Positions 25,570 through 32,996 of a DNA stretch of 34,489 nucleotides are shown here, piece by piece. The translations under genes were made by a program, and so were the position numbers. Below the pieces are notes generated by a model. It searched no databases. It was not told the DNA's origin and saw only the letters and a list, made by a program, of their open reading frames with translations. This stretch comes from Pseudomonadota bacterium (GTDB taxonomy: Bacteria > Pseudomonadota > Gammaproteobacteria > Pseudomonadales > Moraxellaceae): positions 1 through 34,489 of the forward strand of contig CAUJHL010000088.1 of assembly GCA_963204705.1 (NCBI GenBank), in the 5' to 3' direction. The first letter of the stretch is position 1, and the number at the start of each line of letters is the position of its first letter.

Positions 25570-26688
25570 ATGAAAGTAGGTCTGGTGGGTTGGCGTGGCA
25601 TGGTGGGCTCTGTGCTCATGCAACGTATGGTTGAAGAAGATGACTTTGATCACATCGAGCCTTTTTATTTCACGACCAGCAATGTGGGCGGCCCCTCGCC
25701 TGTTTACGGCGGCAAGACGGCACCCGCCTTGATGGATGCCAACGATCTGTCAGCATTGAAAGCCATGGACGTTATCCTGACCTGTCAGGGTGGCGATTAC
25801 ACGACTGCCATTTTCCCCCAGCTGCGCAACGAAGGCTGGAAAGGCTACTGGATTGACGCCGCCAGTACCCTTCGCATGAACGACGATGCCATTATTGTGC
25901 TGGATCCGGTCAATAAATCCGTAATTGAGCAGGGTTTGCAGCAGGGCGTTCGCAATTACATCGGTGGCAATTGCACGGTTTCCCTGATGCTGATGGGGCT
26001 TGGTGCGCTCTACCGCGAAGGGCTGGTCGAATGGATGACCGCCATGACCTATCAGGCCGCCTCGGGTGCAGGCGCGAAAAACATGCGCGAATTGCTCAGT
26101 GGCATGGGCTACCTGCATGCCGGTGTAGAAACCCTGTTGGCCGACCCAGCCAGTGCGATTCTGGATATTGACCGCAAAGTCGCTGAAATGAAACGGGAAG
26201 ATACCTTTCCCAAGGCCAATTTTGGCGCACCGCTGGCAGGCTCCCTGATTCCCTACATTGACAAACAGCTGGACAATGGCCAATCCAAGGAAGAATGGAA
26301 GGCACAGGTCGAGACCAATAAAATTTTGGGTCACGGCCCCGGGCAGATCATTCCCATTGATGGACTGTGTGTCCGGATTGGTGCCATGCGCTGCCACTCA
26401 CAAGCACTTACCATCAAGCTGAAAAAGGACGTGCCACTGGACGAAATCGAGGACATGATTCGCTCGGCCAACCCATGGGTATCGGTAGTTCCCAACACCC
26501 GTGAAGCCAGCATGACCGATCTGACGCCTGTCGCCGTGACGGGTACGCTGGGGATTCCGGTGGGCAGACTGCGCAAGCTGAACATGGGCAATGATTATCT
26601 CTCGGCGTTTACGGTGGGTGACCAGTTGCTCTGGGGTGCGGCAGAACCCTTGCGCCGTATGCTGCGCATTCTGGTGGAACAGCGCTAG
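25570..26688 (+). CDS. asd: Aspartate-semialdehyde dehydrogenase
   Basis: A 372-residue enzyme that reduces aspartyl-phosphate to aspartate semialdehyde, feeding lysine, diaminopimelate, threonine and methionine synthesis. The NADP-binding start [12 protein letters not shown] is at 3-14, catalytic C135 lies in GGNCTVSLM, and the active-site His is in [10 protein letters not shown]. Length matches the gammaproteobacterial enzyme. GAGAGG and AGGG precede the ATG. Placement ahead of fimV matches Pseudomonas and relatives. Confidence 0.97.
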
Positions 26689-26930: not shown

Positions 26931-29111
26931 ATGGCGTTGAACAAAGGACTGTTGGCTCTCGCTGGCACCAGTCTCCTGATTCCCACACTGGCTCAGGCAT
27001 TGACCATACAGCATGTGCGGGTCACATCCGTGATCGGTGAGCCATTTCGCGCTGAAGTGACGGTTACCGATATTGGTGGATTGACCAGCGCACAGCTTCA
27101 GGGCTCGCTGGCCAGTGACGCGGATTTTCAATTACTGGGCGTGAATCAAAATAGCCCAGTGCCTTCCCTGTCCTTTGAAACCCGTATTCCTTCTCCGGAA
27201 CGTGGCGTGATCACGATCACTAGCCGCCAGCCCATTCAGGATCCCTATCTGGATTTTGTCATGCGCATCGGTGGGGGGCGTAATGTACGGCTACAACACA
27301 TTACGGCACTGATTGACCCGCCTGCGAGCACTCGGCGCACCATGACAGCTGCCGCTCCTGTCTCTCTGCCTCCAGTTGTTGCACCCTCTACCGTCAATTC
27401 CACGTACCCTAAAAATACCAGCACACCCTCTGCGCCTGTTTCGCCTTTGACGTCGCCAGTTGCTCAGCGTGTCGCTACTGAACCGGTTGCCCCTATTGCA
27501 CGTCCGGCGATTTCCCTGCCCGTAGTCACACGCATACCCGCCAGCCCAGCTCCGGTCGTTACGTCCAGCTCGGTGGCAACGTCCGCCTTACCCACTGCCT
27601 CACTGCCTCCAGTGCGTATGGCAGTACCCAGTCAGACGAGACCCTTAACGGTTGCCACCCCGCCAGTCCAGACCACTGCCGCCAGGTTCAGTCCAGCTCC
27701 GGCTGGCCAAATAGTCCCGACTGGCCAAACAGCCCCTCTGGCACTCCCCGCATCCAATAAGCCTGCACCGGTCGTGCCCGTCACTCCGCCCGCAGCAACC
27801 GCCCTGATGGCTGAAAAACCCGTGCTTCCGGCAGCGGTGGCGACTGCGCAGCCTGAGCCCAAGGCTCCTTTGATCCAGACAGCTGAAATTCCGCTGATTC
27901 CATTACGGCAAAGCCCGCCTCCAATGGATGCGCCACCTGAACCCCTGCAGGCATCCGTGCCACCACCTGTGGAAACGCCGCTTCGCGAACCACCCAAAAA
28001 TGACGTGCCGCCTCCGGTGAGCACTGACACAATGGTCGCGACCCAGCAACAGGTACTGGAACACCCCCAGTCACCGACAGCGACTCAGACCCCGGCTGAG
28101 ACACCCACTCAGGCCCCCACCCAGACACAGTCATCGACGCAGGAAATCGCGCCACCACCTTCAGAACTGGTTGCAGCGCAAACCTCTCAGCCGACTGTCG
28201 TGCCGACTCCACCCGAGCCCAGCGCAGTCCAGCCTAGCCCAGTCCAGTCCAGTCCAGCTGAAAGTGCCGCTATCAAAGCGAACCAAACCGCAGAACCCCC
28301 GATTACGGCTGCCGAAGCCGCTGCACTGACGGCCGAACTTCAAGCGGCAGAAAAGAAATCCGCCAGCATCCCTCCTCTGGTTACCAGTGCATCGGGCAGC
28401 ATCCACTATCAGGTGCAAGGTCAGGATTCACTGTGGAAAATTGCCCAGCGCCTGCAACCTGAATTGCACATGAGCGTTCCCCAGCTGGTCACGACACTGC
28501 ACCGCCTGAATCAACAGGCATTCGTGCATGGCAATCCAAACCAGTTACGCAAAGGCGTACATCTGGTTTTGCCGCCGCAGGTTCGCGAACTGCCCATGTC
28601 TGGCCCTGAGCATCAACCCACGCTTGCCGCAAAACCAGCACGTTCCGCATTGCCACCAACAACAGTCAATACAGGCAAAACCCAGCCTGCTCCACGGCGT
28701 GGCGCTCTGCCACGAGCCGAAATGACCCTGATTGCTCCCGGTAACGAAGGTCTGGCGCTGGGCAATGCCAAACAGGGTCGCACTCAAGGTGACCAGCCGC
28801 TATCGACCGCATTGGCCACTTCGGTCGGTAATGCTCGCGCACGGACGAAGGCACTGCAAAGTGATATCTCCCAATTGACACAGCGCTTACAGCTCAATGA
28901 TCGCCGGCTGGCCATACAAAATGCCCGTCTGGCGGAACTCGAACAACGTCTCAAAGCACGCAGGGAAGCAAAAAGAAACCCGATGAAACCAGCAAACACC
29001 ATACACGCCATGGCTCTTGGACTGGGGTTGATCACCAGTCTGGGCGCTGTACATAATTCGACCGAATCTGTTGCGACGGCAGCAGCAATGCACTTAGGGG
29101 TATCACTATGA
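26931..29111 (+). CDS. fimV: FimV N-terminal half (peptidoglycan-binding LysM part)
   Basis: A 726-residue protein with a signal peptide (about 1-23, ending AQA) and the FimV N-terminal domain (about 24-130, LTIQHVRVTSVIGEPFRAEV). A Pro/Thr/Ala-rich linker of about 330 residues follows. The LysM domain (about 486-545) begins IHYQVQGQDSLWKIAQRL. A coiled coil (about 635-680) and a final weak hydrophobic segment (TIHAMALGLGLITSLGAV) complete it. FimV promotes type IV pilus function and twitching motility and sits at the inner membrane spanning the periplasm. The TPR cytoplasmic half expected in the same protein is instead encoded by the next gene, whose ATG overlaps this TGA (ATGA). No clear ribosome-binding site was seen. 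Confidence 0.9.
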   Translation: MALNKGLLALAGTSLLIPTLAQALTIQHVRVTSVIGEPFRAEVTVTDIGGLTSAQLQGSLASDADFQLLGVNQNSPVPSLSFETRIPSPERGVITITSRQPIQDPYLDFVMRIGGGRNVRLQHITALIDPPASTRRTMTAAAPVSLPPVVAPSTVNSTYPKNTSTPSAPVSPLTSPVAQRVATEPVAPIARPAISLPVVTRIPASPAPVVTSSSVATSALPTASLPPVRMAVPSQTRPLTVATPPVQTTAARFSPAPAGQIVPTGQTAPLALPASNKPAPVVPVTPPAATALMAEKPVLPAAVATAQPEPKAPLIQTAEIPLIPLRQSPPPMDAPPEPLQASVPPPVETPLREPPKNDVPPPVSTDTMVATQQQVLEHPQSPTATQTPAETPTQAPTQTQSSTQEIAPPPSELVAAQTSQPTVVPTPPEPSAVQPSPVQSSPAESAAIKANQTAEPPITAAEAAALTAELQAAEKKSASIPPLVTSASGSIHYQVQGQDSLWKIAQRLQPELHMSVPQLVTTLHRLNQQAFVHGNPNQLRKGVHLVLPPQVRELPMSGPEHQPTLAAKPARSALPPTTVNTGKTQPAPRRGALPRAEMTLIAPGNEGLALGNAKQGRTQGDQPLSTALATSVGNARARTKALQSDISQLTQRLQLNDRRLAIQNARLAELEQRLKARREAKRNPMKPANTIHAMALGLGLITSLGAVHNSTESVATAAAMHLGVSL

Positions 29112-30580
29112 AAGTAGTCATTATTCTGGTTATTCTGGCTGCGATCGCCGCGATTGCCTTTTTTATTCTGAAATCCAAAAAGCCAACGTCCACACCGACA
29201 CTGAGCCCCCCGCAGAAGCCACCAGCACCGCCCGTAGGCCGTCCTGCGACCAAGACACACATTCCTGTCGCCAAAGCGCCTGTTGCACCCGTTCCAGCGC
29301 CGACACCCGTTGTTGCTCCGGCACCCGCCCCAGCACCAGTCGCCGAAGTTAAACCCGCACCTTCCGTGGACCCTCTGGAAGAAGCCGAAGCGTATCTGGC
29401 CATGGAACGCTATCCACAGGCGGTTGGCGTCCTGTCCAAAGCCTCGCAGGCAGCACCTGACCGTCCTGACCTGCAGCTCAAATTGCTCGAGATTTATGCG
29501 CATCAAAACGATCTGGAGGCATTTGACGAGCAATTTGATCGTTTCAAAAATCTGGCGACCGACGCTGAACTACAGAAAGTAGAACGCCTGCGTGAGTCGA
29601 TTTACATTCCGGTCGTTGAACCCAAAAGCGACAGCATAGACTTTACGCCTTCTGCACTTCCTGTCGCCCCTGAGAGCCCAGCGCCGGAACAGGTCGCACC
29701 AGTCACCAGCGAGCCGGATCATTCACTGGATTTCAGCTTTGACAAACCCATCAGCGATGGTCAAAGCCCCTCACTGGAGCTGGATCAGAGCGACGATCGT
29801 GCTTTCCGTCTGGATACCCCGCCGGAAACCAGTTCACTGGACGAGCTGGAGAAAGAGTTCCGCACGTCGGGCATTCATACCGCACTGAATCTGGATGCCG
29901 CCGAAAAAGCTCCAAGTGCCACCAGCCTCAACCTGGATATGTCCCACGAGGAATTACTGCCTTCGCTGGACGCCAAGGTCGACCCCGTTCCTGTACAGGA
30001 CAACGCGCCTCTACTGGACGATATTGACCTCGATTTCGGTGGCTCCAAGGATCATGATCTTTCCCTGCCTCCGCTGACACCTGCGGCACTGACGACTCCG
30101 GCTGCTGCGCCCGCACCTGCCAAAGAGGAAGTGGTTGACCTCGGCTTTGATATGGATGACTCATTCGATCTGGAGGATGATAAATCCGCGCCAAAACCCG
30201 CTGCCGATAGTCATAATCTGGCCGAAGGATTTTCCGACCTGGATTTCAGCCTGCCTGAAACGGGCGTTGCGGCTCCCAGCCTCGATTCGTCTGAGCTTAC
30301 CAGCACCGCCGACAGTGCGGTCAATGACATGGCCAGCCGTTTTGACAACCTGCTGGAGCCTGGCGCTGGTGGCAGTGATTCCTTGCTGAGCCGTTTGTCC
30401 ACCGAGTTTTCCTTTATTGGCGAAACCAGCGAGCAAAGCACCAATCTCAGCCTGGCCAAGAGCTATATCGATCTGGGTGAACTGGCGAGTGCGCGTGAAT
30501 TGCTGGAAGAAGTCATTGCTCAAGGCTCACCGGAAGAGCAGGCTGAAGCCACTAATCTGATGAAAATGGCTGCCTCCTGA
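29108..30580 (+). CDS. fimV: FimV C-terminal half (membrane anchor, TPR, acidic region)
   Basis: A 490-residue protein starting with a transmembrane helix (about 2-20, VVIILVILAAIAAIAFFIL) and a basic stop KSKK, placing the remainder in the cytoplasm. After a Pro/Ala linker come a TPR-like pair (about 94-160), a long acidic Asp/Ser-rich region (about 175-400) and the conserved FimV C-terminal domain (about 435-490, NLSLAKSYIDLGELASARELLEEVI). In Pseudomonas these parts follow the LysM region within one protein. The 4-bp overlap argues for translational coupling, so together the two halves probably do the FimV job in pilus assembly and polar signalling. A strong terminator follows. Confidence 0.88.
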   Translation: MKVVIILVILAAIAAIAFFILKSKKPTSTPTLSPPQKPPAPPVGRPATKTHIPVAKAPVAPVPAPTPVVAPAPAPAPVAEVKPAPSVDPLEEAEAYLAMERYPQAVGVLSKASQAAPDRPDLQLKLLEIYAHQNDLEAFDEQFDRFKNLATDAELQKVERLRESIYIPVVEPKSDSIDFTPSALPVAPESPAPEQVAPVTSEPDHSLDFSFDKPISDGQSPSLELDQSDDRAFRLDTPPETSSLDELEKEFRTSGIHTALNLDAAEKAPSATSLNLDMSHEELLPSLDAKVDPVPVQDNAPLLDDIDLDFGGSKDHDLSLPPLTPAALTTPAAAPAPAKEEVVDLGFDMDDSFDLEDDKSAPKPAADSHNLAEGFSDLDFSLPETGVAAPSLDSSELTSTADSAVNDMASRFDNLLEPGAGGSDSLLSRLSTEFSFIGETSEQSTNLSLAKSYIDLGELASARELLEEVIAQGSPEEQAEATNLMKMAAS

Positions 30581-30890: not shown

Positions 30891-31964
30891 ATGGCTGATC
30901 GTGAATCGCTGGATTTTTCCCTGCATTATCTGGGCGGGACGTTTGGCAGTGTTGGCCAGCCGCTGGCACCTGCTCCTACCGCTACGGTGATGTCGTTTTT
31001 ACACCCCTTGCTACTCCAGTTGCGCCCCGGCTGCTGGACGATCCATGACGAGTACCCTGCACGGGATAGCAGTGCGCTGGAGCCAGCGGACTGGCTCGGG
31101 CTGGCGCAGGCGATCAGTCAGGACTATGTGGCAGGTATACGGCGGGTCATGGTCATCATGGGCACCGATACCCTCGCCTATGTGGCGGCATTTTTGGCAG
31201 AAGTTTTTGTCGAAACGGATATTCAGCTGGTCGTCACCGGCAGTCAGTTGCCTCTGCTCACTCCCGATGCACTCGGCATCCGCTCCGAGACCGACGCACT
31301 GGATAATCTCCGTACGGCCTGCCAGCTGTTTAGCACACCCCGCTATGGGGTGTTCGTGGGCTTTAATCATGGACTGTGGCCCGCCCAGACGGTACAAAAA
31401 ATTCATACGCAGGATCTGGATGCCTTTGCCGGACACCAGCGGGCCGGCTATCCGGCCCATCGGTATCAGCCACTGGGGACGCGTACCCGCGAGATGCGGG
31501 CTGCGGATCTCCAACAACGTCTGGCCTCCGTCAGCGACCGCATCGCTTCCTTGCGCATCGGTGTCTGGTATGCCACGCCGCAGCCGCTGGCACTGCTTCA
31601 GGGCAGTTTCACGAGTGCGCTGGCTCAGGCAAGGGATGGCCTGATTGTGCTAGGCTATGGTACCGGCAACCTGCCTCAGGGCGAGGGCTGGGATGCCCTG
31701 TTTACGCAGGCGCAGCAGCAGGGCACTCTGGTCATACTGGGCACTCAGGTGCCCTTTGGTGGTACGCAGAGCCGTTATGCGGCGGGTATCTGGCTGGAAG
31801 CTCAAGGGGTGTTGCCCGCTGCCCGACTGACACTCCCCGCAATGGTTGCCCGGCTGTACTGGATTTGCCTCACGCAGCACTCCCCGGCCCAGCGCCGCCG
31901 CCGATGGCTCTACTGTCTGGATGCCAAATCCCGCTATACTCCCCGGATGGAACAGCAGCCCTGA
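30891..31964 (+). CDS. L-asparaginase family protein
   Basis: A 357-residue member of the bacterial asparaginase/glutaminase family, hydrolysing asparagine to aspartate and ammonia. Catalytic threonine T17 is in LGGTFGSV. The second triad T92-D93 is in MGTDTLAY, with K170 in TVQKIHTQDLDAF. TGSQLPLL and YGTGNLP are further family blocks. No signal peptide is present, so a cytoplasmic (type I-like) enzyme is inferred. The gene lies between fimV and truA, which are often adjacent in Pseudomonadales. The region just upstream is a tandem repeat, with only a weak ribosome-binding site. Confidence 0.9.
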   Translation: MADRESLDFSLHYLGGTFGSVGQPLAPAPTATVMSFLHPLLLQLRPGCWTIHDEYPARDSSALEPADWLGLAQAISQDYVAGIRRVMVIMGTDTLAYVAAFLAEVFVETDIQLVVTGSQLPLLTPDALGIRSETDALDNLRTACQLFSTPRYGVFVGFNHGLWPAQTVQKIHTQDLDAFAGHQRAGYPAHRYQPLGTRTREMRAADLQQRLASVSDRIASLRIGVWYATPQPLALLQGSFTSALAQARDGLIVLGYGTGNLPQGEGWDALFTQAQQQGTLVILGTQVPFGGTQSRYAAGIWLEAQGVLPAARLTLPAMVARLYWICLTQHSPAQRRRRWLYCLDAKSRYTPRMEQQP

Positions 31965-32144: not shown

Positions 32145-32996
32145 ATGACTATCGACAGTTCTGAACCATGCGCTCCCCTTCCCACTGCTACGGGCCGTAT
32201 TGCGCTGGGGATTGAATTTAATGGTACCGGCTATCGTGGCTGGCAAACGCAGCAGGCGGGTGTGCCCAGTGTTCAGCTCACGCTGGAGCGGGCGCTGACG
32301 AAAATCGCCAATCATCCGGTCATCGTGCATGCCGCTGGCCGCACCGATGCGGGTGTGCATGCCAGCAACATGGTGGTGCATTTTGATACCACGGCCACCC
32401 GAACGATTCAGGGCTGGATTCGCGGTACCAATACCCTGTTGCCCCCAGATATCGCTGTGCGCTGGCTACACGTCATGCCCGAGGCCTTTCATGCCCGTTT
32501 TCGGGCCATCGCTCGTCGCTACCACTACGTCATTCTCAATCAGCCCTACCGGCCTGCTCTGCTGGCTGGTCAGGTGACACACGTCTATGCCTCTCTCGAC
32601 ATTCCCGCGATGCAGGATGCGGCCAGTCGCCTGCTGGGACGCCATGATTTTTCCAGCTTTCGCGCAGTCGCCTGCCAGTCACGGCAACCCGTCCGTCACG
32701 TACAGATTTGCCAGCTCGTGCAGCGCGGAGCCTTGCTCATACTGGATATACAGGCGGATGGTTTTTTACACCACATGGTGCGCAATATCATCGGCTGCTT
32801 GCTGGAGATTGGTCAGGGACTGCAATCGCCTGACTGGATTGACCACTTGCTTCAGGTGAAGGATCGTACGCAGGCAGGCATCACTGCGCCCGCAGATGGC
32901 CTGTATTTTGTGCAGGCTTATTATCCGCCCGAGTTTGACTTGCCCAAGCCCACGCTAGGGCCGGTATGGCTTAGCCCGCCGATTGCGACAGCCTAG
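32145..32996 (+). CDS. truA: tRNA pseudouridine synthase A
   Basis: A 283-residue enzyme that makes pseudouridine at positions 38-40 of tRNA anticodon arms. Catalytic D68 is in AAGRTDAGVHA; LGIEFNGTGYRGWQ (21-34), RRYHYVI, RHDFSSFRA and FLHHMVRNIIG are conserved family blocks. Its TAG stop overlaps the converging stop of the AraC gene in a shared CTAG. In Pseudomonas truA is usually followed by trpF; here it is not. Confidence 0.96.
   Translation: MTIDSSEPCAPLPTATGRIALGIEFNGTGYRGWQTQQAGVPSVQLTLERALTKIANHPVIVHAAGRTDAGVHASNMVVHFDTTATRTIQGWIRGTNTLLPPDIAVRWLHVMPEAFHARFRAIARRYHYVILNQPYRPALLAGQVTHVYASLDIPAMQDAASRLLGRHDFSSFRAVACQSRQPVRHVQICQLVQRGALLILDIQADGFLHHMVRNIIGCLLEIGQGLQSPDWIDHLLQVKDRTQAGITAPADGLYFVQAYYPPEFDLPKPTLGPVWLSPPIATA

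Follow-up and report, generated by a model that had tools for sequence, protein, structure and literature searches.

FimV/HubP proteins are usually viewed as a single envelope-spanning chain that links a mark on the peptidoglycan to cytoplasmic clients. In P. aeruginosa, the LysM domain of FimV is required for the localisation of PilO and PilQ and for optimal secretin assembly, and the C-terminal TPR part of the protein is bound by FimL (PMC5285504). In A. baylyi, a protein corresponding to the C-terminal half alone pulls down with FimL and, again alone, places the pili along the long axis of the cell; this FimV has been described as truncated, and according to the same study FimV could not be found by sequence (PMC9596432). 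The FimV of A. baumannii has been said to lack the periplasmic domain completely (PMC12918733). The first-pass annotation of the locus described here took known FimV/HubP proteins to be single polypeptides, a statement that needs qualifying given that A. baylyi FimV has been published as the C-terminal half only (PMC9596432). Full-text searches of open-licence papers turned up no description of FimV being split in the Moraxellaceae.

The window, by which is meant the whole 34,489-nucleotide stretch analysed, is one contig (C88) of a draft genome of 2.4 Mb in 169 contigs. Its genus within the Moraxellaceae (g1) is represented by this one genome in the collection, and the bases at 29096-29111 come from that single draft assembly. 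The window asd has its best matches in Acinetobacter and Alkanindiges, and the genome contains a PilM gene (type IV pilus) and one CheW / CheA-/ChpA-type cluster. FimV is encoded by two genes, in the order asd, fimV-N, fimV-C, asparaginase and truA, with the following features.

25570..26688, + strand: asd (Pfam), the conserved upstream neighbour, in the same order in the loci of named relatives
26931..29111, + strand: fimV-N (ORF 1), periplasmic half, 726 aa, with FimV_N and FimV_core matches
26931..26999, + strand: signal peptide MALNKGLLALAGTSLLIPTLAQA, with AxA site and hydrophobic core, kept in relatives
27006..27323, + strand: FimV_N Ig-like domain, aa 26-131 (Pfam; beta fold, pLDDT about 85)
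28425..28577, + strand: LysM-like FimV core, aa 499-549 (TIGR03505; pLDDT about 80-87)
28806..28976, + strand: long periplasmic helix/coiled coil, aa 626-682, 57 residues (alignments, structure model)
29001..29051, + strand: weak hydrophobic segment IHAMALGLGLITSLGAV in the fimV-N tail, corresponding to the internal signal-like segment in fused FimV
29096..29100, + strand: AGGGG, Shine-Dalgarno-like, within the fimV-N frame and 7 nt before the fimV-C ATG
29108..29111, + strand: ATGA overlap, fimV-C start over fimV-N stop, where the frame switches (read from the sequence)
29108..30580, + strand: fimV-C (ORF 2), inner-membrane/cytoplasmic half, 490 aa, ATG start, with FimV_Cterm match and 4mal homology
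29111..29176, + strand: transmembrane helix, aa 2-23 (helix pLDDT about 82; hydropathy 3.45)
29372..29614, + strand: TPR domain, aa 89-169 (Pfam TPR_19; helices, pLDDT about 90)
30440..30565, + strand: FimV C-terminal domain, aa 445-486 (TIGR03504; pLDDT about 93)
30891..31964, + strand: asparaginase (Pfam), conserved downstream in most split-clade members and Alkanindiges
32145..32996, + strand: truA (Pfam), conserved downstream neighbour

ORF 1 matches Pfam FimV_N (PF25800) above its cut-off (E 1.5e-20) and NCBIfam FimV_core (TIGR03505) with 51.7 bits against a cut-off of 43.45 (E 5.5e-14), and a long Pro-rich linker lies between the Ig-like domain and the LysM core. ORF 2 matches NCBIfam FimV_Cterm (TIGR03504) with 52.4 bits against a cut-off of 30.65 (E 3.9e-14) and is homologous to 4mal, the solved C-terminal domain of P. 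aeruginosa FimV (E 1.1e-9); in the structure model an acidic stretch of low confidence lies between its TPR repeats and this domain. The membrane helix of ORF 2 is flanked by one K/R before and three after, and these charges predict an N-out/C-in topology. The first-pass annotation had described two FimV genes with overlapping stop and start, split at the membrane segment, with a signal peptide, FimV N-terminal domain, Pro-rich linker, LysM and coiled coil in the first and a membrane helix, TPR, acidic region and FimV C-terminal domain in the second. The coordinates, domains and frame switch agree with the split as described, the profiles and the model agree with the content given for each gene, and the 4-bp ATGA overlap is exact at 29108-29111. 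It is highly probable that this arrangement is a genuine fission of FimV, found in most Moraxellaceae, which has left the peptidoglycan anchor and the cytoplasmic hub as separate, co-expressed proteins.

A search of the named genomes with the C half returned no matches, and asd was then used as neighbour bait, which yielded 80 named loci, 61 of them Acinetobacter-type. An adjacent FimV-N and FimV-C pair on the same strand is present in 56 of the 61 (N half 358-577 aa, C half 342-480 aa). Among the loci with no intact pair, L112 is masked by N and those of A. baylyi and A. soli hold the C half only; in two A. rudis genomes, both halves are gone from between asd and the asparaginase gene. The A. 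soli, A. baylyi and A. rudis exceptions correspond to loci L053, L074, L088 and L099, and a profile search of the genomes of these three species found no N half elsewhere. Because of these losses, neither half can be essential, and FimV is dispensable in the genus. In three further Acinetobacter loci, L174 (G083), L173 (G133) and L176 (G074), the FimV halves are shortened or interrupted and apparently decaying. The pair also occurs in four further Moraxellaceae genera, g11, g8, g10 and g7, where g8 is Psychrobacter-like and g10 Moraxella-like in the sense of likeness only, and in g14 the C half is a separate gene whose upstream partner is lost to the contig end. Among the matches listed, the FimV-C open frames of Acinetobacter are far below fused length and those of the 105 g8 genomes reach at most 745 aa; in all, FimV-C frames too short for a fused protein were found in hundreds of genomes. 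Alkanindiges (g9), g5, g12, g13, g2, g3, g4, g6 and the outgroups encode a one-piece FimV of about 530-1050 aa. The first-pass annotation had suggested searching related genomes for the same split with a conserved ATGA overlap: the split occurs family-wide, close relatives included, whereas the overlap is not conserved. In most relatives 30-150 bp separate stop and start; only the window, g11 and the A. puyangensis group have an overlap or a 2-bp gap.

FimV_N and FimV_core each recognise all ten sequences in the N-half alignment, and FimV_Cterm is matched by 7 of 11 C halves. Each FimV-C examined begins, or nearly begins, with a strongly hydrophobic helix; about 0 K/R precede this helix and 2-7 follow it, a pattern that points to the N-out/C-in orientation of FimV for these proteins. 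Members of the A. calcoaceticus-baumannii complex score under the NCBIfam cut-offs for both N and C halves, which may be why such proteins are labelled 'hypothetical protein' and why FimV could not be located by sequence in PMC9596432. Within this complex, fimV-N is directly upstream of fimV-C in A. nosocomialis, A. pittii, A. seifertii, A. lactucae and A. calcoaceticus, and from these relatives we infer that A. baumannii itself carries fimV-N. The pair is also present at L077, a record labelled A. baumannii but resembling A. guillouiae.

Given that the window is read from a single draft genome, it could be argued that an assembly or sequencing indel near the linker has divided a FimV that is fused in the window species, as it is in Alkanindiges, which belongs to the same clade and has a similar linker. 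Furthermore, 17 open codons precede the ATG of ORF 2 in its frame, none of them a start codon, and one indel there would join the frames. Nevertheless, this is very unlikely. The membrane helix starts at the ATG, which the Shine-Dalgarno-like AGGGG precedes at the right spacing, the window TopA and Asd align to their relatives end to end in one frame with no frameshift, and in other genera of the same clade the two genes are set apart by clear gaps or start/stop signals; because the split recurs in relatives, a one-base error at the window split is unlikely. Codon usage, scored by training on the window's other genes (mean +4.2 nats for true frames and -4.4 for wrong ones, s.d. 3.5), ranks frame 1 above frame 2 as far as 29108, except for an ambiguous stretch at 28960-29010, and nowhere before the ATG does it decide for frame 2: over the last 17 codons before the overlap frame 1 scores -1.9 and frame 2 -5.7 nats, and there is a sharp switch to frame 2 (+7.6) at the fimV-C ATG. 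Frame 1 scores as poorly coding in its final few codons, which is what a ribosome-binding site at this place would lead one to expect, and here the codon test alone leaves room for an indel. A programmed -1 frameshift at the overlap was also considered, and no slippery heptamer is present at ATCACTATGA. A further proposal, that the first gene is a decaying remnant and FimV-C alone matters, would be in keeping with the 'truncated FimV' of A. baylyi, with the loss of the N half there and in A. soli, with the loss of both halves in A. rudis and with the broken or shortened halves of G083 and others, but it is scarcely credible given that signal peptide, Ig, LysM and coil are intact in nearly all split genomes and that the N half is under purifying selection. 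In 15 close pairs of Acinetobacter, dN/dS ranges from 0.11 to 0.33 in the N half and from 0.10 to 0.39 in the C half; as these values are low in both, neither half is a pseudogene.

The weak hydrophobic tail noted earlier at the end of the first half is real, with a mean hydropathy of 1.75 over the 17 aa of IHAMALGLGLITSLGAV, and this raises the question of whether the halves lie side by side in the membrane and re-form a continuous FimV by pairing of the tail with the helix, as the first-pass annotation had in part supposed. In favour of such pairing, similar tails occur in three deep Acinetobacter lineages and the juxtamembrane coil is conserved, the motif at its end (N664, L667, A668, L670, L674) being invariant in split and fused FimV alike. 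However, this is improbable: a hydrophobic tail is found in only a few split FimV-N, those of the window and the A. puyangensis/A. populi group, and is absent from nearly all others, most of which end soon past the coil. Since most FimV-N are without it, the tail cannot be a general link between the halves, which may still touch by way of the conserved coil or a partner protein. In addition, the window tail is modelled as disordered, with low confidence (pLDDT about 40-46), and A. baylyi FimV-C works in the absence of any FimV-N. The proposed association through the tail is therefore not borne out, and separate, co-expressed anchor and hub proteins are the most economical reading of the locus.

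The tail has a counterpart in one-piece proteins. The fused FimV of g5, g12 and Alkanindiges contain a signal-peptide-like segment between the coil and the membrane helix, for example KKALATMACAVVTQSFLATEAKA, and at loci L035, L036, L047 and L050 the internal segment of one-piece FimV consists of basic residues, a hydrophobic stretch and AxA, followed by a short linker. The segments of Alkanindiges RAAEGDSGGGFPIW and g11 YAADEASSGGIPGW are clearly alike, and in g11 FimV-C there is a clear signal peptide ahead of the helix. The window tail (29001-29051) aligns with the internal segment of the fused proteins and looks like a leftover of it; in most Acinetobacter, g8 and g10 the segment is missing from both halves. 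In A. puyangensis/A. populi the last codons of the tail hold the ribosome-binding site of the next gene, CAGGAG, and the stop-start gap is 2 bp. A nested second gene within fused FimV was sought, and no conserved start codon or Shine-Dalgarno sequence precedes the internal segment. That fused FimV might be cleaved at the signal-like site is speculation and would be topologically awkward, given that the segment is met from the periplasmic side.

In a tree of TopA and RpoB, all split genera fall in one clade (support 100) with the fused Alkanindiges nested within it. The window row rests on TopA, as RpoB domain PF00562 has no match in the window assembly, rated 99.5% complete; this is probably an assembly gap. 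The clade of window, g11, Alkanindiges and Acinetobacter has a support of 95, and 98 in an LG+G4 repeat, and the branch order among window, g11 and Alkanindiges plus Acinetobacter is weak (support 48-75). The tree test rejects a monophyletic group of split genera that leaves out Alkanindiges (p-AU 0.0019), from which it follows that FimV was either split once and re-fused once or split several times; the fewest fused/split changes on the tree are two. The break lies before the signal-like segment in g11 and after it in the window, and the spacing from coil to segment is near-identical in Alkanindiges and g5 (17 and 18 residues). These break positions and spacings lean towards repeated fission over fission and re-fusion. 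It is tentatively suggested, as a history that may well be wrong, that FimV was broken independently several times at one juxtamembrane linker and that the older internal signal-like segment enabled this. Were FimV broken repeatedly in this way, the segment ahead of the helix would have let the inner half insert alone, and any stop or frameshift in the linker would then have given two working proteins; the segment would have become the signal peptide of the second gene in g11 and been stranded in the first gene in the window.

With anchor and hub taken as separate proteins, the first gene would give an exported periplasmic protein with Ig-like domain, LysM peptidoglycan-binding domain and coiled coil, and the second an inner-membrane protein with one N-out/C-in helix and a cytoplasmic TPR/FimV-C hub; in relatives, this hub is the binding partner of FimL and sets the position of the type IV pilus machinery. 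What each half does in the window organism is read across from these relatives and domains. The stop/start overlap and the Shine-Dalgarno sequence within frame 1 suggest, by their layout, that the two genes are translationally coupled, such that translation of fimV-C would depend on, or be paced by, that of fimV-N, possibly through termination-reinitiation. With the fission, peptidoglycan anchoring and cytoplasmic recruiting would no longer be covalently joined, and each half would be free to act, be lost or change on its own. A family with separate ends, which includes Acinetobacter pathogens, offers a natural test of whether pili and chemosensory arrays can be placed without the covalent link.

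Compared with known systems, the window has the Ig-like domain, LysM-like core, C-terminal domain and predicted C-in helix of FimV/HubP, but not in one polypeptide, and by domain content its proteins would be classed as split members of FimV/HubP rather than classical FimV. The FimV of P. aeruginosa and P. putida has the same order of Ig-like domain, LysM, coil, helix, TPR, acidic region and C-terminal domain in a single polypeptide, where the window has two genes. HubP of Vibrio and Shewanella, like FimV, is a polar landmark that unites LysM, a membrane helix and the C-terminal FimV domain, and it differs from the window proteins in being a single chain without the Ig-like domain (PMC12918733). 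The closest one-piece relative is the Alkanindiges FimV, of about 900 aa, which likewise lies between asd and the asparaginase and truA genes and differs in being unsplit and in having the internal signal-like segment ahead of its membrane helix; no asparaginase gene lies between fimV and truA in the deeper fused lineages examined. Finally, the A. baylyi FimV, ACIAD0477, is the equivalent of fimV-C, with a membrane-helix start, TPR and C-terminal domain, and has lost the neighbouring fimV-N that the window and most Acinetobacter keep as a gene of its own. The published readings of a FimV that is 'truncated' or has no periplasmic domain change accordingly, given that in nearly all other Acinetobacter examined this domain is encoded one gene upstream.
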